The notes below the pieces were generated by a model, which saw nothing but the letters and a program-made list of their open reading frames with translations, was not told the origin of the DNA and did no database searches. 64,000 nucleotides of DNA from Ideonella alba (GTDB lineage: Bacteria > Pseudomonadota > Gammaproteobacteria > Burkholderiales > Burkholderiaceae_C): positions 62,001-126,000 of the forward strand of contig NZ_JAGQDF010000006.1 in assembly GCF_018069875.1 (NCBI RefSeq). Reading direction: 5' to 3'. Made by a program: the position numbers and the translations under genes. Below are positions 25,103 to 35,312 of this stretch, one piece after another; within the stretch, counting starts at the first letter, position 1; the number at the start of each line of letters is the position of its first letter.

Positions 25103-26299
25103 TCAGCTGTTGATGTACTGGAACAGCGACATCTTCTGCAGAGTCGCGTAGGTTTGCAAGGCCACCTGGTAGCCGGTCTGCTGGTTGGCAAAGTCCGAGA
25201 TCGCCTGGGTCTCGTCCAGGTCTTCGGCGTCGGACTCGGTGGTCTTGGCGAACAGCTTCAGGTCGGTGACCCGGGCCTGCACGCCCTCGATGCGGTTGAG
25301 CGTCTCGCCGGCCAGGCTGCGTGACGATTGCAGCTGGCCCAGGCTCTGATCCACGTCGCGCAGGCCGGTCTGCACGGCCTGGGTGACCTGGGTGGGGGTC
25401 TGGTTCGGCGTCTTCAGCGCATTGACCACCCGGTCCAGCGCATCGAACACCGACAGGCCGACGGCCGAGGGCGTGATCTCGAAGGCATCGGCATCGGCCG
25501 GCGTGCCGTTGACGGCGAAGGACATGCCGTCGATCGTGATCGCCTGGCCCGAGGTGTAGGGCTGGCCACTGAGCGCCGTGGGATTGCCGTCCTGGAAGAC
25601 GCTGTAGGTGGTGACACCGCCGACCACGCTGAAGCTGACGCTGTAGGTGGAGCCGGTGATCTGGGCCGGATCGGTCACCCGGCCGGCGTCGATCCAGGCG
25701 CTGCTGCTGCCCAGGTTGCGGGTCTCGAAGACGCCGTTGCCGGTGCGTGCGCCCATCCAGACCTGGCGGCCGTCGAAGGTCAGTGGCAGTTGCTCATCCG
25801 AGGCCACTTCCACCTGGCCGCCGGTGCCGGTGTAGGCCACGCCGCCCGGGGCATCCAGGAACGGCGGCTGGCTGGTGCCCTGGCCCGAGAAGACGAAGCC
25901 GCCGGCGCCATTGCCGCGGTTGGCCACGCTCATCAGCTGCTTGCGGATCTCGGCCAGCTGCTTGGCCACGTCCTGGCGCTGGGCATCGCTGTAGCTGGCG
26001 TTGCCGGCGGCCACCACCAGCTCACGCGCCTGCTGCAACAGCTCGCCGGCATCGCCCAGTGCCGACTCGGTCAGCGTCATCGAATTCTTGCTGGCGTCCA
26101 CCGCGCGCTGGTTGGCCTCGGAGCGCTGCTGCAGCGCGCGCGCCCGCTCGGCCCGCGCCGCGGCGACCGGGTCGTCGCTGGCGTGCAGCACCCGCTTGCC
26201 GCTGGTGAGCTGCTGCTGCGCCTCGACCAGGTCCTGCTGGCGCTTCTGCAGCGTGTTGATCACCTTGTCGTAGGCATTCAGGGTGGCGACGCGGAACAT
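25103..26299 (-). CDS. flgL: Flagellar hook-filament junction protein FlgL (HAP3)
   Basis: The product is 398 aa. The N-terminal D0/D1 helices (MFRVATLNAYDKVINTLQKR, TSGKRVLHASDDPVAAARAE) and the C-terminal helix ending MSLFQYINS are typical of FlgL and flagellin relatives. FlgL forms the second junction ring between hook and filament, outside the cell. An AGGAG ribosome-binding site precedes ATG 26299. It is the last gene of the operon flgG-(lipoprotein)-flgH-flgI-flgJ-flgK-flgL and follows flgK by 26 bases. The variable middle domain (about 140-290) is of ordinary size. Confidence 0.95.
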   Translation of the reverse strand: MFRVATLNAYDKVINTLQKRQQDLVEAQQQLTSGKRVLHASDDPVAAARAERARALQQRSEANQRAVDASKNSMTLTESALGDAGELLQQARELVVAAGNASYSDAQRQDVAKQLAEIRKQLMSVANRGNGAGGFVFSGQGTSQPPFLDAPGGVAYTGTGGQVEVASDEQLPLTFDGRQVWMGARTGNGVFETRNLGSSSAWIDAGRVTDPAQITGSTYSVSFSVVGGVTTYSVFQDGNPTALSGQPYTSGQAITIDGMSFAVNGTPADADAFEITPSAVGLSVFDALDRVVNALKTPNQTPTQVTQAVQTGLRDVDQSLGQLQSSRSLAGETLNRIEGVQARVTDLKLFAKTTESDAEDLDETQAISDFANQQTGYQVALQTYATLQKMSLFQYINS

Positions 26300-26325
26300 G
26301 GATGGACTCCTGGAAGGTCACTCGG

Positions 26326-28290
26326 TCACTGGCCGAGCTGCAGCATGGTGTCGAACACCTGCTGCGCCACCTGCAGCACCTTGGCGGCTGCCTGGTAGCT
26401 TTGCTGGAACTGCAGCAGCATCGCGGCCTCTTCGTCCAGGTTGACGCCGACCTTGGAGGTCACGGCATCGGTCGCCTGGGTGTAGGCCGATTCGGAGATC
26501 TGCGCGGCGGTCTTGGCGCTCTGCACCCGCACGCCGATGTCCGACATGGTGTTGGCGTAGGCGTCGGTGAGGGTGGCGCCTTCGGCGATGCTGCCGTCCT
26601 GGCGCATCGTGCGGCCGACGAAGCGCTCGTCGCGCAGCGCCGCCACCTGCAGCGCGTTGCCGTTGTTGGTGGCGGGGAACTGGGTCTTGGCGATGCTGAT
26701 CGTGTCCCCGGTCTTGGGCACGCCGTTCAGGCGCAGCTCAAAGCCGTTGAAGGCGATCGGCTGGCCGGCCACCCAGGCGCCGCTGCCGCTGTCGACCACC
26801 GTGCCACTGGCGTCGGTGATGCTGTAGTCGTAGTTCCCGGTGTCGTCATTGAAGCTGATCGCCACGCTCAGGTTGGGGTCGATGCCGGTGCTGACCACCT
26901 TCAGCGAGGCGACGGTGGCGGTGCCGGTGTTGGCGTCGCCCATGGTGGCGGTCACCGGCGCTGCCGCGGCAATGCCGTCCGGGTCGTCCAGCACACGGGC
27001 CATGCCGGTGGCGGCATGGCCGACCGGCTGCAGCAGGAAGCGGTCGCCGGCCTGCAGACCGGGCGGCGGCACGCTGACGGTGAAGCCGTCCACCGTGTCG
27101 CCGTCGACAATGCTGCGGGTCAGGCCGTCGGTCAGCCGCTTCAGCAGGAACTGGCCCGGGTTGTCGGGGTCGTTGGTCAGCTCGTAATCGCTGGCCTGCA
27201 GCAGCGTGGCGTCGGCGATGTCGACGTTGACGGTGGCGATCAGGTCGCCATTGCCGTCGCGCGCGTTGTTGCGGTTGGGCACCACGGTCGGTGCGGTGAT
27301 GCCGAACAGCGCCGCGCCGGCCCCGGGCGGGTCGCCCAGGTCCAGGCCCATGGCCTGCTGGTCGTTCATCTTGGCGGCGAACACCGTGGCCATCTGGCCC
27401 AGCTGGTTGCGCATGTCCACCAGGTCGTGGTTCTGGTAGCGCAGCAGGCCGGCGATCGAGCCGCCGGTGACCATCTGGTCGTCGATCGGCAGCGTTTCGC
27501 CGGCAGACACCAGGGACAGGGCCGCGCGGCTGGGATCAGCGGGGTCCGGGCCGACGCTGAGCTTTGAGGCCTCGGTGCCCAGCACCAGGCGCTGACCGCC
27601 GGCAATGAACACGCCCAGCGTGCCGTCGTCGGCTTCGATGGTGCTGACCTGCAGGTACTGGCTGAGCTGGTGCACCAGCTCGTCGCGCTGGTCGAGCAGG
27701 TCGTTGGGGCGTTGGCCCAGCGACCAGACCGAGGCGATGCGGTCGTTCAGCGTGGCAATGTCCTGGGCCAGGCCATTGACGGTCTCGGCGGAGCTGGCCA
27801 GGTCGGAGCGCACGCCGTCCTGCAGCACCTCGATGCGGCCGGCCGCGCTGGAGAAGCGCGCCGCCACGTCGGCGGCACGGGCCAGGTAGACCTGGCGCGC
27901 GGAACCGTCGGCCGGCACGCTGGCCAGGTCGGCGGCGGCGTTCAGGAACTCACCCATCGCATAGCCGATGCCGGCGGTACCGGGCGGGAACACATCTTCC
28001 AGCTGCTGCAGCTGGACCGAGCGCATGCCGTCCATGCTCGACAGCGATGCCGCGGCATGCGCCTGGGCGGTGAGGAACTGGTCGTGGGCGCGGCGCACGT
28101 CCACCACGTTCGAGCCCTTGCCGAAGAAGCCCGCACCGGTGAACTGGCCGGTGTTGGTGGCCAGGATCGCCGACTGGCGCGAATAGCCCTGGACACCGGC
28201 GTTGGCGATGTTGTGGCCGGTGACCTGCAAGGCGGCGCTGTTGGCCAGCATGGCGCGCAGGCCGATGGCCATCAATCCGGAGGTCGACAT
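26326..28290 (-). CDS. flgK: Flagellar hook-associated protein FlgK (HAP1)
   Basis: The product is 654 aa. The N-terminus has the axial-protein signature (GLRAMLANSAALQVTGHNIANAG), followed by the FlgK block YSRQSAILATN, and the C-terminus carries the matching D0/D1 helix (VNLDEEAAMLLQFQQSYQAAAKVL). The middle (about 330-560) is an enlarged variable domain with beta-rich repeats. It builds the first hook-filament junction zone. GGAG lies upstream of ATG 28290, 13 bases after flgJ. Its length is somewhat above the roughly 550 residues of the enterobacterial protein, as is common in Burkholderiales. Confidence 0.95.
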   Translation of the reverse strand: MSTSGLMAIGLRAMLANSAALQVTGHNIANAGVQGYSRQSAILATNTGQFTGAGFFGKGSNVVDVRRAHDQFLTAQAHAAASLSSMDGMRSVQLQQLEDVFPPGTAGIGYAMGEFLNAAADLASVPADGSARQVYLARAADVAARFSSAAGRIEVLQDGVRSDLASSAETVNGLAQDIATLNDRIASVWSLGQRPNDLLDQRDELVHQLSQYLQVSTIEADDGTLGVFIAGGQRLVLGTEASKLSVGPDPADPSRAALSLVSAGETLPIDDQMVTGGSIAGLLRYQNHDLVDMRNQLGQMATVFAAKMNDQQAMGLDLGDPPGAGAALFGITAPTVVPNRNNARDGNGDLIATVNVDIADATLLQASDYELTNDPDNPGQFLLKRLTDGLTRSIVDGDTVDGFTVSVPPPGLQAGDRFLLQPVGHAATGMARVLDDPDGIAAAAPVTATMGDANTGTATVASLKVVSTGIDPNLSVAISFNDDTGNYDYSITDASGTVVDSGSGAWVAGQPIAFNGFELRLNGVPKTGDTISIAKTQFPATNNGNALQVAALRDERFVGRTMRQDGSIAEGATLTDAYANTMSDIGVRVQSAKTAAQISESAYTQATDAVTSKVGVNLDEEAAMLLQFQQSYQAAAKVLQVAQQVFDTMLQLGQ

Positions 28291-28303
28291 GCCAGGTTCT
28301 CCT

Positions 28304-29182
28304 TCAGGCGCTCAGGCTGCGCTGCAGGCGCAGCGTGGTGTTGATCACCTTGCCCAGCTTGCTGGCGTAGGCGGGGTCGGTGGCGTAGCCGGCGTTCTGC
28401 AGGCCCTGGGCGAAGCCCTTGGCATCGGCACCGGCGGCCACGACCTTGGCATAGCGCGGGCTGTTCTTCATCAGGCTGGCGTAGTCGGCGAAGGACTCGG
28501 CGTAGCTTCTGTAGGCGCGGAACTTCTGCACCACCTTGCGCGGCGTGCCGTTGATGTACTCGGTGGTCACCACGTCGGCGGTGGCGCCCTTCCAGTTCGG
28601 GCTGGCCTTGATGCCGAAAAGGTTGAAGGTGTTGCTGCCATCGGCGGCCTTCATCTCTTTCTTGCCCCAGCCGCTCTCATGGGCGGCCTGCGCCACCATG
28701 AAGGTGGCCGGGATGCCGGTGCTGGCCTCGGCGGCCTGGGCCGAGGCGGTGTGGCGGGCGACGAAGTCGGCCGCCGATTGCGTGGGGATGCCGCTGGGCT
28801 GGGCCGCGCCGATGGGCGTGGAGGTGGTGTCGGGCTTGGGAATCGGACCGGGCTGCAGGCCCATGTTGCGCTCAAGCTGGCGGGCGATCACATCGCTCAG
28901 GCCGCCCGGGCGGCCGGCCACCTTGGCCGCCCACTGCGCATCCAGCATCTCGCGGCCGAGCTTGCTGCCTTCGTTGTCGAAGCTGCCGTCCTGGCCGGGC
29001 TCGGAGGCCTGGCGCATGGTCTTCAGCAGTTCCTGCATGAACAGCGATTCGAACTGCTTGGCGGCCTCGCGCACCGCGGTCTTCGGGTCAGCTGCGGCCT
29101 GCCGGCGCAGCGATTCAACGCCCCGGGCATCACCGAATCCGGTGCGCGCGGCGTTCTGGAAGGTGGTGGGGATGGCGGCCAT
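28304..29182 (-). CDS. flgJ: FlgJ, rod-cap protein with muramidase domain
   Basis: The product is 292 aa. The N-terminal part is the rod-binding domain (AKQFESLFMQELLKTMRQAS, residues about 38-115), which caps the growing rod. The C-terminal part is a GH73-type glucosaminidase (about 140-290) with the catalytic Glu in AQAAHESGWGK and the NLFGIKA and FRAYRSYAESFADY motifs. It clears peptidoglycan locally so that the rod can cross the wall. The two-domain form is the usual one in beta- and gammaproteobacteria. It lies 10 bases after flgI. Confidence 0.95.
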   Translation of the reverse strand: MAAIPTTFQNAARTGFGDARGVESLRRQAAADPKTAVREAAKQFESLFMQELLKTMRQASEPGQDGSFDNEGSKLGREMLDAQWAAKVAGRPGGLSDVIARQLERNMGLQPGPIPKPDTTSTPIGAAQPSGIPTQSAADFVARHTASAQAAEASTGIPATFMVAQAAHESGWGKKEMKAADGSNTFNLFGIKASPNWKGATADVVTTEYINGTPRKVVQKFRAYRSYAESFADYASLMKNSPRYAKVVAAGADAKGFAQGLQNAGYATDPAYASKLGKVINTTLRLQRSLSA

Positions 29183-29192
29183 GGCGCTTGCC

Positions 29193-30347
29193 TCAGATGA
29201 CCTCGAGCTCGGCCTGCAGCGCGCCGGCCGACTTCATCGCCTGCAGGATGGCCAGCAGGTCCTGGGGCGTGGCACCCAGCGCGTTGAGCGCCTTGACCAC
29301 GTCGGCCAGCTGCGCGCTGGCGGGCACGTTGATGACCTGGCCGCCCTGCTGGGTGACCTGGATGTCGTTCTTCTCGGTGACCACGGTCTGACCGCCCGAC
29401 AGCGCGCCCGGCTGGCTGACCTGCGGGGTCGAGCTGATCGTCACCGCCAGGCTGCCGTGCGCCACGGCGCAGGGCGCCAGCGTGACGCTCTGGTTCATCA
29501 CGATCGAGCCGGTGCGCGGGTTGAGCACCACCTTGGCGGCGGGCTTCTCCAGCGTCAGCGGCAGGTTCTCGACCTCGGCCAGGAAGGCCACGCGCTGGGC
29601 GCTGTCCTGCGGTGCGCGCACGCGCACGACGCGGCCGTCGATGGCCTGGGCCGTGCCCTCGCCCTTGGCGCCGTTGATCGCCTTGGCCACGGCATTGGCG
29701 GTGGCGAAGTCGCCCGAGCTGAGGTCCAGCTGCACGAACTCGCCCACCAGCAGCGGCGTGGGCACGGCGCGCTCCACCGTGGCGCCCTGCGGGATGCGAC
29801 CGCCGCCCAGGTGGTTGATCTGCACCTTGGCGCCGCCGGCCGACGCGCCCGCGCCACCCACGATCAGGCCGCCCTGGGCCATCGCATAGATCTGCCCGTC
29901 GGCACCCTTGAGCGCGGTGGCGACCAGGCTGCCGCCGCGCAGGCTCTTGGCATTGCCGATCGACGACACACTCACATCGATCTGCTGGCCCGGCTGGGCG
30001 AAGGGCGGCAGCGTGGCCGTGACCAGCACCGCCGCCACGTTCTTCAACTGCATCTGGGCGCCGGCCGGCACGGTCACGCCCATCTGCTGCAGCATCGAGT
30101 TGACGCTTTGCGCGGTGAACGGCGTCTGGGTGGTCTGGTCGCCGGTGCCGTCCAGGCCGATCACCAGGCCGTAGCCCATCAGCTGGTTGGGTCGCACGCC
30201 CTGCACCGAGGCGACTTCCTTGATGCGCTGGCTGGCCTGTGCGGGCCAGGGCCACCACAGGGCGGCACTGGCCATCACGGCCGCCAGCATGGCGGCCAGG
30301 CGCAGCAGTCGTTCGGTACGGTCGGGCGCGTTCATCACGAGGCTCAT
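29193..30347 (-). CDS. flgI: Flagellar P-ring protein FlgI
   Basis: The product is 384 aa. The ATG at 30347 overlaps the flgH stop by one base (TGATG). The signal peptide (LLRLAAMLAAVMASAALWWPWPAQA) directs export to the periplasm. P-ring signatures are present: IKEVASVQGVRPNQLMGYGL, VIGLDGTGDQT, PFTAQSVNSMLQQMGV and the C-terminal ADVVKALNALGATPQDLLAIL. FlgI forms the ring in the peptidoglycan layer around the rod. Both visible cysteines (APCAVAHG) need checking against the disulfide pair of the Salmonella protein. Confidence 0.96.
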   Translation of the reverse strand: MSLVMNAPDRTERLLRLAAMLAAVMASAALWWPWPAQASQRIKEVASVQGVRPNQLMGYGLVIGLDGTGDQTTQTPFTAQSVNSMLQQMGVTVPAGAQMQLKNVAAVLVTATLPPFAQPGQQIDVSVSSIGNAKSLRGGSLVATALKGADGQIYAMAQGGLIVGGAGASAGGAKVQINHLGGGRIPQGATVERAVPTPLLVGEFVQLDLSSGDFATANAVAKAINGAKGEGTAQAIDGRVVRVRAPQDSAQRVAFLAEVENLPLTLEKPAAKVVLNPRTGSIVMNQSVTLAPCAVAHGSLAVTISSTPQVSQPGALSGGQTVVTEKNDIQVTQQGGQVINVPASAQLADVVKALNALGATPQDLLAILQAMKSAGALQAELEVI

Positions 30348-31072
30348 CAGATCGGCAGCAGGTTCAGGAAAAAGCGGCCCAGCCAGTTCATGCCCTGGGC
30401 ATCCTCGATCGCACCGCGACCGCGGTTCTCGATGCGGACATTGGCGATCTGCGCGCTCTGCACGGTGTTGCCCGGCGCGATGGCACGCGGATCGACCTGG
30501 CCGGTGAAGCGCAGCACATCGACGCGCTGGTTGACACCCACCTGCTTCTCGCCGGCCACCAGCAGGTGACCATTGGGCAGCACGCCCACCACGGTGGCGG
30601 TGATCGTGCCGCTGAACTGGTTGGTGGTGGCGGTGGTGCCTTTGCCTTCGAAGTTGTTGGCGCTGCTGCCCGAGATGCCCAGACGCGACAGCCCCAGCGC
30701 CGACAGACCGCTCAGCGACGAGGCGCTGGACTCGACCTTGCCGGTCTTGCCCACGGTGCTGTTGGCGGTCTGGGTGGCGCTGACGTTCTCGACGATGTTG
30801 ATCGTCAGCGTGTCGCCCACCATGCGCGCGCGGTAGTCCTCGAACAGCGGACGGTAGGCCGCGGCCTGGTAGATCGCGCCATTGCCGCCCATCGCGACCG
30901 GGGCGGTGTACGGCAGCGGCTGCAGCTCGGGGAACGCGCTCGGGCCGCTGGCCGGTGCCGCGGGGGCGGTGGCGTGGGCGAAGTCGACCTGGGGGGTCGG
31001 GTAGATGGTGGTGCAACCGGCCAGGGCCGCCAGCGTCAGCGCGGGCAGGAGGCGGGTGAGGGTGATCGACAT
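30347..31072 (-). CDS. flgH: Flagellar L-ring lipoprotein FlgH
   Basis: The product is 241 aa. The ATG at 31072 gives a lipoprotein signal with LAALAGC, so Cys20 is lipidated. L-ring motifs follow: GAIYQAAAYRPLFEDYRARM, VGDTLTINIVENVSATQTA, FSGTITATVVGVLPNGHLLV and the terminal MNWLGRFFLNLLPI. The protein forms the outer-membrane ring. It starts 20 bases after a FlgE-like lipoprotein gene, an uncommon neighbour at this position, and its stop overlaps the flgI start. Confidence 0.96.
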   Translation of the reverse strand: MSITLTRLLPALTLAALAGCTTIYPTPQVDFAHATAPAAPASGPSAFPELQPLPYTAPVAMGGNGAIYQAAAYRPLFEDYRARMVGDTLTINIVENVSATQTANSTVGKTGKVESSASSLSGLSALGLSRLGISGSSANNFEGKGTTATTNQFSGTITATVVGVLPNGHLLVAGEKQVGVNQRVDVLRFTGQVDPRAIAPGNTVQSAQIANVRIENRGRGAIEDAQGMNWLGRFFLNLLPI

Positions 31073-31092
31073 GGTCGTGTGTCCTGCAGGAA

Positions 31093-32151
31093 TCAATGGC
31101 CGGTGTGGCTGCGCAGCTGGGCGTCGGTCTCGAGCGCGCCGGTGCGCAAGGTGCCGTTCAGGCCCAGGCCCGGCGCCGTGATGACCGGCGCAGCGCCCGA
31201 CACCTGCTGCCAGCCCTGGGGGGTGGGCATGAAGCGCTCGGTGCCGGCGAAGCGGGCCAGCATGATCCGACCCCGGTCGGCGCGCTGGCCGTTCGAATAC
31301 TCGGCCGTCAGGCCGCCGCCGCTTTCGACGAGCAGGCTGACCAGGCGACCCGCGGCGTAGCCGTCCTGACGCACGTCGGTCACCGAGAAGAACGAGCCAT
31401 ATTGGGTCGCACGCGACAGATCCAGGGCAAGCCCTGCGATGGGCTGCGTGGTCATTCCCTGGGCATTGACCGAAGACGGGACGTTCAGCGTGGTCGAGCT
31501 GGGCGACGGCGTGCTGCCGTCGGGCAGGAAGCTCAAGGTGACAACGGGCTGCGGGTCGTCTGCGGTGCCAGCGACCGTCGCGCCATTGGCGTTGACATAG
31601 ACGTTCCACTGGTCGTCGGCACGCTTCTGGAAATAGACGACCAGTGCCACCGACACACCGTTGCCGTCGAAAACCTCGGCCGAGGTGGCGTGGTTGTAGG
31701 TTCCGGCGTTGGCGAAGTCGATGCGCGGCGTGAATCCGAGGTCGGTGACGCTCAGGCGCGAGTCGAGGTTGAACTCAAGGGACAGCCCCGTGGTGGCATG
31801 CGAGGACATCAGCTCCGGCACCGTCAGCGGCACCAGCGCGGCGGCATCGCTGCTGCCGGGCGCCAGGCCCATCAGGCGCGCGCCGCTGCGGTTGACCAGG
31901 CCGTCGGCACCCAGGCCCAGGCTGGCCTCGCGGCTGTAGACGGTCTGGCCGCTGCCGGTGCGCCAGACGAACTGGCCATCGCCCTCGATCGCCAGGTCCA
32001 GCGCGCGGCCGGTCTCGACCGCGGTCGCGGCCACGGGCATCTGCTGGGCCTGGATGCGGCCCACCGGCTGGTCGACATCGCCGCCGCCACAAGCGGCCAG
32101 CGCCAGCATGACGATGGTGGCGATCGACGCGGCAGCCAGGCGACGCATCAT
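31093..32151 (-). CDS. FlgE-like lipoprotein lacking the axial D0 helices
   Basis: The product is 352 aa. The start (ATG ATG at 32151) lies 8 bases after flgG with GAGG upstream. It opens a lipoprotein signal ending LALAAC, so Cys21 is the expected lipid anchor. The rest aligns with hook-protein domains: LDLAIEGDGQFVW, the FlgE central block YNHATSAEVFDGNGVSVAL with NVYVNANGATVAG, and the C-terminal block YGSFFSVTDVRQDGYAAGRL, EYSNGQRADRGRIMLARF. Both terminal D0 helices that build hook and rod are missing: there is no SNNIAN-type start and no closing coiled coil. It is therefore not the hook subunit. An outer-membrane or periplasmic accessory of the rod or ring assembly is the best guess. 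Confidence 0.8.
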   Translation of the reverse strand: MMRRLAAASIATIVMLALAACGGGDVDQPVGRIQAQQMPVAATAVETGRALDLAIEGDGQFVWRTGSGQTVYSREASLGLGADGLVNRSGARLMGLAPGSSDAAALVPLTVPELMSSHATTGLSLEFNLDSRLSVTDLGFTPRIDFANAGTYNHATSAEVFDGNGVSVALVVYFQKRADDQWNVYVNANGATVAGTADDPQPVVTLSFLPDGSTPSPSSTTLNVPSSVNAQGMTTQPIAGLALDLSRATQYGSFFSVTDVRQDGYAAGRLVSLLVESGGGLTAEYSNGQRADRGRIMLARFAGTERFMPTPQGWQQVSGAAPVITAPGLGLNGTLRTGALETDAQLRSHTGH

Positions 32152-32159
32152 GGCAGGCC

Positions 32160-32942
32160 TCAGAGTTGCGCCAGACGCTGGAGCATCTGGTCGGAGGTGG
32201 AGATGGCCTTGGAGTTCAGCTCGTAGCTGCGCTGGGTCTGGATCATCGTCACCAGCTCCTCGACCATGTTGACGTTGCTGGTCTCGAGGTAGCCCTGCTG
32301 CAGCGTGCCCAGGCCGTTGGTGCCGGGCACCGCGGCATTGGGCGTGCCCGACGCGGCGGTCTCGGTGAAGAGGTTCTGGCCGCGCGGCTCCAGGCCGCCC
32401 GGGTTGGCGAACGAGGCCATCGAGAACTGGCCCAGCACCTGCGGTGTGGCCTGGCCCGGCAGCGTCACGCTGACCTGGCCGCTGGGGCTGATCGACACGC
32501 TCTGCGCGTTCGCCGGGATGGTGATGCCGGGCTGGACGACGTAGCCCGAGTTGTTGACGATCTGGCCCTGGGCATCCATCTTCAGCGCACCGTCGCGCGT
32601 GTAGCCGGTGCCACCGTCGGGCAGCGTGACCAGCAGGAAGCCGTTGCCGTTGATGGCCACGTCCAGGTTGTTGGAGCTCTGCTGCAGGTTGCCCTGCGAG
32701 AAGTCCCGCGCCGAGGCTACCGCCCGCGTGCCCAGGCCGACCTGCAGGCCGGTGGGCAACTGGGTCTGCTCGGAACTGGCGGCGCCGCTCTGGCGCAGGT
32801 TCTGGTACATCAGGTCCTCGAACACCGCATGCGAACGCTTGTAGCCATTCGTCGCGGCATTGGCGAGGTTGTTGGAGATGTGGTCCAGCTGCGTCTGCTG
32901 GGCTTCCATCCCGGTCTTCGAAATCCAGAGTGATCGGATCAT
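32160..32942 (-). CDS. flgG: Flagellar distal rod protein FlgG
   Basis: The product is 260 aa, the standard length. The N-terminus [20 protein letters not shown] with [15 protein letters not shown] and the FlgG-specific segment [12 protein letters not shown] distinguish it from FlgF. The middle has [13 protein letters not shown], and the C-terminus ([20 protein letters not shown]) is the conserved axial helix. It forms the distal rod that passes through the P and L rings. It is the first gene of this operon: flgBCDEF, which usually precede it, are absent and the upstream neighbour is a long inverted repeat, so the fla cluster is split. Confidence 0.96.
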
Positions 32943-33052
32943 GGTGTACTGCTCCCATTCAGGGGGATGACACGATGATCCCGGGAACTTGAGGCCTGCT
33001 TAGCCGCGAAAAGCCGGGGTTTGGGGGGGCATCTGCGGGCTTGGGCGGCGGT

Positions 33053-33310
33053 TTGCTGCCCACAGCGGCCGTTGGCCGCTGTGGGCCAAGGCCCCGAACG
33101 TTGGGCTCCCCCCAGCCCCCCTCCAAGAGGGTGGCTCCAGTCAGAACCACAAAAGGTGGTGCGCCAAGCGTGCCAGCGCCACGCCGGCCGGCAGGCCGGC
33201 CCGAAGCTCATGCTGGAGCCCCCTTCTTGGAGGGGGGCTGGGGGGAGCTCAACGGAATAGGGCTCTGCCCACAGCGGCCTACGGCCGCTGTGGGCAGAAG
33301 CCAGCCACTG
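33053..33310. repeat. Long imperfect inverted repeat with nested hairpins (REPIN/MITE-like)
   Basis: The left arm (about 33053-33140) and right arm (about 33215-33305) are inverted copies roughly 88 bases long, about 80 percent identical by eye, separated by about 75 bases. Each arm holds its own palindrome (CCCACAGCGGCC / GGCCGCTGTGGG) at the outer end and the C-rich string CTCCCCCCAGCCCCCCTCC at the inner side. Two small hairpins in opposite orientation around a spacer is the layout of REPIN elements. It lies between the flgG start and the bufferin operon, both of which point away from it. Confidence 0.75.
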
Positions 33311-33431: not shown

Positions 33432-33698
33432 ATGCAAGTCACCAAGACCACGTCGGCCGTTGCGCTGGCCGCCACCTGTGCCGCGTTGTTCGCCATGGGC
33501 GCCCCCGCCACGGCCCAGGCCGCCAGCGACAAGGGCGTGCAGTGTGCCGGCGCCAACAGCTGCAAGGGCCACTCCGAGTGCAAAACCGCCACGAACGAGT
33601 GCAAGGGCATGAACGGCTGCAAGGGCCAGGGCTGGACCCAGGCCAAGTCGGCCGAGGCATGCACCAAGGCCGGCGGCAAGCCGATGGCGGCCAAGTAA
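33432..33698 (+). CDS. bufA: Bufferin-type precursor peptide (BufA family)
   Basis: The product is 88 aa. The signal peptide covers residues 1-30 ([21 protein letters not shown]). The mature part is small and Cys-rich: Cys38, 44, 50, 57, 63 and 77 in repeats such as NSCKGHSEC and [13 protein letters not shown], ending [11 protein letters not shown]. Precursors of this kind are modified at cysteines by MNIO enzymes and bind copper in the periplasm. The CKG repeats fit the BufA2-like group better than the EGKEKC group (BufA1). AGGAG precedes the ATG. The next gene, 10 bases on, encodes the MNIO enzyme. Confidence 0.85.
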
Positions 33699-33708
33699 GC
33701 CGTTGACC

Positions 33709-34545
33709 ATGGGCAGCGGTTTCGGCCTCGGCCTGCGCACCGAGCACTATGCTGACTTCCGTGCCCGTCCGCCCCGCGAGTGGGGGCTGGACTGGCTGGA
33801 GATCATCTCGGAGAACTACCTGGTGCCGGGAGGCCGCCCGCTGGCCCACCTGGATGCGATCCGGCGCGACATCCCGATCGCGATGCACGGCGTCTCGCTG
33901 GCGATTGGCAGCGCCGATCCGCTGGACCGTGGCTACCTGCGCGAGTTGCGCGCCCTGATCGACCGTGTCCAGCCCTGCCGCGTGTCCGACCACCTCTGCT
34001 GGGGCCGCGTCGACCACCGCTACCTGCATGATCTGCTGCCACTGCCCTACACCGAGGCCATGCTGCGCCATGTGGTGGACCGGATCGCGCAGGCCCAGGA
34101 CCTGCTGGGACGGCGCCTGCTGCTGGAGAACGTGTCCAGCTACGTGGGCTGGCAGGCCGACGAGATGGACGAGGCGAGCTTTCTGGCCGAGGTGGCCCGT
34201 CGCGCCGACTGCGAGATCCTCCTTGACGTCAACAACGTCTGGGTCAGCGCCCAGCACCATGGCTTTGACCCCCGGGCCTTCATCGACGCCATGCCCGCCG
34301 CGCGCGTCACCCAGTTGCACCTGGCCGGCCATCAGATGACCGAGGACGGCCCGATCGACACCCACGACCACCCGGTCAGCGAGCCCGTCTGGGCGCTCTA
34401 CGCCCACACCGTGCGCCAGCTGGGAGAGGTGCCGGTGATGATCGAGCGTGATGACCACATCCCGCCGCTGCCTGCGCTGCTGTCCGAGCTGGACACCGCC
34501 CGCCGCGTGGCCCGCGACGCCCTGTTGGAACCGGTCACCCCATGA
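33709..34545 (+). CDS. bufB: MNIO-family (DUF692) bufferin-modifying enzyme BufB
   Basis: The product is 278 aa, normal for DUF692 TIM-barrel enzymes that use a multinuclear non-heme iron cluster to oxidise cysteines of a precursor peptide. Conserved segments are present: [62 protein letters not shown] and DTHDHPV, which hold the iron ligands (His, Glu, Asn, Asp). ATG 33709 is preferred to the TTG at 33703. Its stop overlaps the bufC start (ATGA). The substrate is presumably the BufA peptide just upstream. Confidence 0.92.
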
Positions 34546-35312
34546 GTGGATCACTCGAGCCCATGCTTCGGGCCTTCACCCGCGGCCTGACGGGCGACGA
34601 TCCCGCGCCCGCGCTGGCGCTGCTGCGCCCGCTGCGTGGCCGCGCGCCGCTGCTGGGCGTCTACCGTCATGCCTACCGCGCCCGGATGAGCGCTGCGCTG
34701 CGCGACAACCACCCGGTGCTGCACCGGGTGCTGGGCGATGAGGCTTTCGACGCGCTGGCGGCCGACTACCTGGCGGCCCATCCCAGTCAGCGCGCCTCGA
34801 TCCGCTGGTTCGGCGACGGCCTGGCCGAGGCCATCGCCATGGGCGGGATGCCACACGCGGCCGCCCTGGCCGACCTGGCCCGCTTCGAGTGGACGCTGGG
34901 CCAGGTGCTGGACGACCCGGACGCGCCAGCGCTGGATGCCCAGACGCTGCAGTCGCAGCCGCCCGAGGCCTGGGCCACGCTGCCGCTGCGCCTGCACCCG
35001 GCCGCCCGGCTGCTGGCGCTGGACTGGGACATCACGCCGCTGTGGCAGGCGCTGCAGGCCGATGAGCAGGCGCAGACCGCGCAGCCGGCGGCGCGCCCTC
35101 ACCAGGTGCTGGTCTGGCGCCAGGGCCTGGCGCGCCACTGGCGCATCGTCGACGAGGACGAGGCCCAGCTGCTGCACACCCTGGCCGAGGGCACCAGCAT
35201 CGGCGCACTGTGCACGGTGGCCGCCGCCCACAGCCCGGACGCCGCCGACGCGGCGCCGGCACGGGTGGCCGCCAGCCTGCACCGCTGGCTGGCCGACGGC
35301 GTGCTGACTTGA
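34542..35312 (+). CDS. bufC: BufC, DUF2063-family partner of the MNIO enzyme
   Basis: The product is 256 aa. The N-terminal half has the DUF2063 pattern ([53 protein letters not shown]), and the C-terminal half is a less conserved helical region ([23 protein letters not shown]). BufC/HvfC proteins bind the precursor and bring it to the MNIO enzyme. The gene starts inside the bufB stop codon. A DoxX-like membrane protein often seen in these operons is not present; the operon ends here. Confidence 0.9.

Follow-up and report, generated by a model that had tools for sequence, protein, structure and literature searches.

The flagellar operon of Ideonella alba holds, between flgG and flgH, a gene for a FlgE-derived predicted lipoprotein, which we call X. 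This minus-strand gene occupies positions 31093–32151 of the window (the whole 64,000-nucleotide stretch analyzed here), confirming the coordinates of an earlier sequence-only reading. Its translation is 352 amino acids long, starts MMRRLAAASIATIVMLALAAC-GGG and ends GALETDAQLRSHTGH-stop. X is a new FlgE-derived variant within the broad FlgE/F/G subfamily and is not FlgE; we do not class it as FlgE because, when tested, it lacked the D0 features and fell short of the FlgE model cut-offs. We give roughly even odds (about 0.5) to the reading that X is a neofunctionalised flgE duplicate, exported through Sec and Lol as an outer-membrane lipoprotein, whose D1 domain would bind a partner at the L/P ring, the distal rod or the hook base.

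Position and domain make-up of X

The genes around X were named with NCBIfam and Pfam models, all on the minus strand in the order flgG-X-flgH-flgI-flgJ-flgK-flgL, and the placement between flgG and flgH, directly before the gene for the L-ring lipoprotein, is as the sequence-only reading had it. The spacers flanking X are 8 and 20 bases: flgG (distal rod protein, 32160–32942; NCBIfam TIGR02488, 361 bits) stops 8 bases before the start of X, and flgH (L-ring lipoprotein, 30347–31072; Pfam FlgH, 5e-56) starts 20 bases after its stop. Downstream are flgI (P-ring protein, 29193–30347), flgJ (28304–29182), flgK (26326–28290) and flgL (25103–26299). The intact flgE of the same genome is on another contig.

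The hook genes of the window genome are split, with flgC-F on another contig and flgG-L at 25103–32942. In the close relative Ideonella aquatica, one contig carries both flgE and flgG, separated by about 48 kb, and in another genome of the genus (G004) flgE is near flgG. Upstream of flgG, on the plus strand at 33432–35312, is a bufferin-type copper metallophore cluster, in which a BufA2 precursor and a BufB maturase scored above cut-off and a DUF2063 partner matched the HvfC model below cut-off. At this site I. aquatica and the metagenome-assembled genome (MAG) UWPOB_VITRI1 have instead what we take to be a gene resembling glutamine synthetase. An inverted repeat (33047–33306) between flgG and the bufferin genes consists of two 94-base arms, 83% complementary and 72 bases apart, and also contains an inner 16-base perfect inverted repeat.

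X begins with a signal peptide (residues 1–20; 32092–32151, minus strand, as are all the parts that follow) ending in the LAA of the lipobox. The lipobox LAAC, at residues 18–21, was read by inspection of the translation and is present, followed by GGG, both in X and in its orthologue from UWPOB_VITRI1. Cys21 (32089–32091) is the predicted lipidated residue, with Gly at +2 in both copies. Next is a linker (residues 22–45; 32017–32088) with 12–17% identity to the FlgE linker of the same genome in the two X proteins. Residues 46–342 are the D1–D2 portion of the hook protein FlgE, with both D0 segments missing. They comprise the N-terminal half of D1 (residues 46–122; 31786–32016), assigned from Pfam, identity by domain and structure match; D2 (residues 123–265; 31357–31785), with 65% identity to the FlgE of its own genome; and the C-terminal half of D1 (residues 266–342; 31126–31356), the most constrained part, with 92% identity between the two X copies. 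The protein closes with a short tail (residues 343–352; 31096–31125; pLDDT below 50), where FlgE has its closing D0 helix in the alignment.

Model searches agree with these assignments. The Pfam FlgE_D2 model (PF07559) matched residues 128–265 at 5e-23 with 82.5 bits, passing its cut-off of 22.7. The Pfam model for FlgE/F/G D1 gave 1.4e-5 and 25.6 bits, just under its cut-off of 27, and 27.8 bits, above it, for the orthologue; we counted D1 as present from these scores together with the structure match of the X model to the D1 domains of FlgE and FlgG. X passed the cut-off of TIGR03506, the FlgE/F/G axial protein subfamily (123.8 bits against 70.25). The best NCBIfam FlgE model scored 173 bits against a cut-off of 400 and covered only model positions 71–374 of 414, whereas the FlgE of the same genome passed with 497.8 bits. 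That FlgE also matched Flg_bb_rod (N-terminal D0) and Flg_bbr_C (C-terminal D0), neither of which matched X at E 1 or the orthologue at E 0.01 in Pfam. All 26 FlgE proteins from the genus and family searches have the D0 stretch at the start and the closing helix at the end; the two X proteins have neither. The claims of the sequence-only reading that the gene encodes D1/D2-like hook domains, that a lipoprotein signal with Cys21 has replaced the N-terminal D0 helix, and that the closing helix is lost, here in favor of a 10-residue tail, are thus all borne out.

The sequence of X matches the chain of PDB 1wlg, the Salmonella FlgE31 structure, over residues 51–342. The AlphaFold2 model of X had a mean pLDDT of 72 and a pTM of 0.55 (ten-residue blocks from 51 to 340 averaged about 80, and the five models averaged 51–72). 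It superposed on FlgE31 with residues 50–339 on FlgE 71–359 (277 residues, Z 22.8, rmsd 4.0) and, over D1, on a FlgG fragment (130 residues, Z 16.6, rmsd 2.0); since the input alignment held five proteins, three of them FlgE, the likeness to FlgE is partly built in. Arg95 and Glu361 of Salmonella FlgE, named together with Lys32 in the excerpted text of PMC5660449, correspond to Arg74 and Glu341 of X in the alignment with 1wlg, and the Lys32 region is gone. We read Arg74 and Glu341 as retained D1 residues.

Occurrence and selection

X is present in two of the 16 genomes of the genus, namely the window's own (G000) and UWPOB_VITRI1 (G013). Of the other genomes, thirteen matched only through FlgE or part of an axial protein, and one had no match. 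The orthologue in UWPOB_VITRI1 is 76% identical to X and occupies the same site between flgG and flgH, so a homologue with the same lipobox in that gap, as the sequence-only reading envisaged, exists in one other genome. Since this second genome has the same gene in the same place, X is neither a chance product nor a misassembly. The opposing idea that it is a truncated hook gene or an assembly artifact is contradicted by the same-site orthologue, by purifying selection, and by the separate intact flgE on another contig. I. aquatica 4Y11 (G001) has no X, and its flgG is directly followed by flgH, though its FlgG is 99% identical. Given its presence in 2 of 16 genus genomes and its absence from I. 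aquatica, X is not a core flagellar part.

At the limits set, flgG was found in 229 of 299 family genomes and flgH likewise in 229 of 299. Among the matches listed, 122 family genomes had both genes on one contig, and the estimated spacer between them did not exceed 128 bases in any but the window genome, where it was 1084 bases. The C-terminal 83 residues of X matched one of 399 genomes of the order, the window's own; UWPOB_VITRI1 evidently lies outside that sample. A family search with X at E 1e-60, a threshold that would miss weaker second copies, matched 11 of 299 genomes, and every match but the window's X was FlgE. Scanning the named genomes with the two-copy alignment returned four loci: one X, two FlgE of close relatives, and one Pseudomonas FlgE. 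X-like genes may occur beyond this family or outside the flgG-flgH gap. Three genus genomes (G003, G008 and G002) carry a second, different FlgE with both D0 segments (L018, L019 and L020, respectively), perhaps belonging to a second flagellar system.

Between the two X copies, dN/dS was 0.36 overall at a dS of about 0.46 (dN/dS and dS throughout are pairwise counts that ignore codon bias). By domain, it was 0.46 for the N-terminal half of D1, 0.34 for D2 and 0.12 (0.02–0.28) for the C-terminal half of D1, for which a second estimate gave 0.09; the signal peptide and linker, with few codons, were near 1. In the same two species dN/dS was 0.089 for FlgE, 0.039 for FlgG and 0.218 for FlgH. X is retained by purifying selection, more loosely than FlgE, FlgG and FlgH except at the C-terminal half of D1. 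Of 105 residues that are fixed in the two X proteins but occur in none of the five FlgE compared, 10 fall in D2 by hand count. Conservation is reversed in X: D2 (residues 123–265) is the most FlgE-like region, yet it is the most variable between the two copies when set against residues 46–122 and 266–342.

That X is a functionless, decaying duplicate is very improbable. Decay would fit the lack of X in I. aquatica, the 24% amino-acid difference between the copies (4% for FlgE of the same two genomes) and the near-neutral signal peptide and linker. However, the reading frame, the lipobox and both junctions have been kept in two genomes across a dS of about 0.46, and the selection pattern, at 0.36 overall and 0.09–0.12 in the C-terminal half of D1, already contradicts it. 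Another reading is that X works outside the flagellum, as a lipoprotein, general or exposed at the surface, that has a different ligand; the operon would then be a mere insertion site. Its patchy presence, the fast change of the N-terminal half of D1 and the greater variation of D2 than D1 between copies are compatible with this, but X has been kept within the flagellar operon at tight spacing in two genomes, and we consider a role outside the flagellum unlikely.

How X came to be missing from I. aquatica depends on the order of the three species. The flgC-F tree places I. aquatica with the window genome (95/98; 65 sites versus 27 and 18). The flgG-L tree leaves the three-species fork open, the top pairwise identity being that of the window genome and I. 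aquatica (91.7% versus 89.4% and 88.7%). If the flgC-F tree is right, X would have been present before the three-species split and lost in I. aquatica, and would therefore be dispensable there. The absence of X from that species implies an auxiliary role. The start of flgH in I. aquatica shares a 13-base word with the start of the X orthologue. We do not claim this as a scar of X; the signal peptide aligns equally well with flgH of the other species.

Descent from flgE

A 20-protein tree recovered the two X proteins as one group (100/100, stem of 1.46 changes per column) nested with the FlgE of the same three species (93/100), on a long branch and with one X of odd letter make-up. A tree of D2 only grouped X with the local FlgE (100/98) on an X stem of 0.12 changes per column. 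A tree of D1 only set X apart, outside the FlgE rows by midpoint rooting, on a stem of about 10 changes per column; the D1 data do not reject a grouping of X with the local FlgE (p-AU 0.69). Identity between X and the FlgE of its own genome was 65–71% in D2, 27–38% in D1 and 12–17% in the linker for the two copies. In comparisons of the window genome's FlgE with that of eight other species, D2 was less conserved than either D1 half in seven of the eight, the exception being G003.

Against the FlgE of its own genome, the N-terminal half of D1 had a dN/dS of 2.49 (bootstrap 1.49–4.36) in the window and 1.65 (1.04–2.51) in the orthologue. The corresponding values were 0.50 and 0.33 for D2 and 0.94 and 0.84 for the C-terminal half of D1, neither of the latter above 1. 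Over the whole of D1, the orthologue gave 1.17, with 1 inside the bootstrap range (0.82–1.75).

Because the D1 and D2 trees differed so sharply, we considered a mosaic origin, in which an older D1 had been joined to the D2 of the local flgE. Synonymous divergence from FlgE at 31126–31356, the C-terminal half of D1, exceeds that of the N-terminal half of D1 and of D2. In this half dS against the FlgE of the same genome was 0.78 and 0.87 (0.84 and 0.66 between FlgE lineages of the genus), and 11 of 21 and 10 of 20 comparable four-fold sites differed; both measures point toward a mosaic. For the N-terminal half of D1 and for D2, dS was 0.34 and 0.52 in the window and 0.60 and 0.66 in the orthologue, and the FlgE lineages of the genus, at 0.88–0.89 and 1.05–1.10 for these two parts, lie above the values for X. 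The low dS of these parts, together with the p-AU of 0.69, disfavors the mosaic, and we therefore favor a plain duplication, by which X would have arisen from this clade's own flgE. The C-terminal half of D1 may have a separate history, being older or foreign, or its dS may be saturated.

Possible roles and known systems

The position of the gene, its fold and its predicted route suggest that X is an accessory of the rod, the ring or the hook base. X would leave the cytoplasm via Sec and Lol, not through the flagellar export gate, and would be anchored as a monomer in the outer membrane, on its inner leaflet. By a sorting rule derived from enterobacteria, Gly at +2 is compatible with an outer-membrane destination. 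The conserved D1 face would then be the binding surface for a partner located at the L/P ring, the distal rod or the hook base, for which gene position makes FlgH, FlgI, FlgG or FlgE the candidates; our first choice is a collar or bushing, with the hook-like D2 resting on the axial structure. X would tune flagellar assembly or stability rather than enable it, because a close relative does without X.

Lacking D0 and the N-terminal stretch, X should be no substrate for flagellar export and should not join the hook lattice. The sequence-only reading had gone further and held that such a protein cannot polymerise as FlgE does. The absence of D0 is supported; the failure to polymerise is what we infer from it. 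If X does stay out of the lattice, it might regulate hook assembly or act as a decoy in it, as a periplasmic, non-polymerising hook mimic whose D2 would bind FlgE, FlgD or the growing tip and so limit stray or early polymerisation. That D2 is still FlgE-like and D1 is not agrees with such a role. So does the finding, in the excerpted text of PMC5660449, that changes in the stretch next to D0 of Salmonella FlgE leave it exported mainly un-polymerised, this stretch being needed for hook assembly. However, the most constrained part of X is the C-terminal half of D1 and not D2. In addition, the normal path of hook subunits runs inside the axial channel, out of reach of a periplasmic lipoprotein, and overall we regard a decoy as rather unlikely.

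Alternatively, X might plug or gate the L/P ring: tethered to the outer membrane, its axial fold would occupy the ring lumen whenever the rod is missing, as when the flagellum has been shed. According to the excerpted text of PMC6424402, an unidentified plug occupies the distal-rod position in relic L/P rings of several gamma-proteobacteria, and the authors believe that the flagellar secretion system does not export this plug. X combines a distal-rod and hook fold with a lipoprotein signal, and its gene lies between those for the distal rod and the L-ring. However, the species in which the relic-ring plug was observed belong to another class, and since X was found only in this clade, it is not the general plug and could at most be a clade-specific version; we find this role quite unlikely. 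Equally doubtful is the corresponding history, in which a polymerising subunit exported by the type III route would, after one duplication, have become a membrane-anchored hook mimic that is exported by Sec and caps or plugs the L/P ring. If true, it would represent a natural, clade-specific way to hold or close the outer-membrane pore without an axial structure.

We return to the accessory reading, under which X would bind the L/P ring or hook base. Were that so, axial proteins could be recruited as membrane-held accessories. Species with X and a close relative without it make clean comparisons possible.

Among the best-ranked literature matches on FlgE paralogues, lipoproteins and truncated hook proteins, we found nothing like X. 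FlgO, FlgP and FlgT are accessory proteins around the L/P ring in some bacteria, and are named as accessory ring proteins in the excerpted text of PMC6424402. X, in contrast, derives from an axial protein, and Pfam and NCBIfam searches at E 1 gave it no match to any such family. Its neighbor FlgH, encoded by the adjacent gene, shares with X a lipoprotein signal and an expected outer-membrane site; FlgH matches Pfam FlgH, whereas X does not. With FlgE, X has in common the D1 and D2 domains, the fold and descent. FlgE, however, has both D0 segments and an N-terminus for export and assembly, which X lacks, and X has a lipoprotein signal and a far-changed D1. The closest counterpart in extent is FlgE31, the crystallized D1–D2 fragment of Salmonella FlgE, which reportedly does not polymerise and covers nearly the same stretch as X. 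FlgE31 is a fragment made for crystallography, whereas X is a natural gene product: a D1–D2 hook fragment on a predicted lipid anchor, with one half of D1 changing fast and the other nearly fixed.
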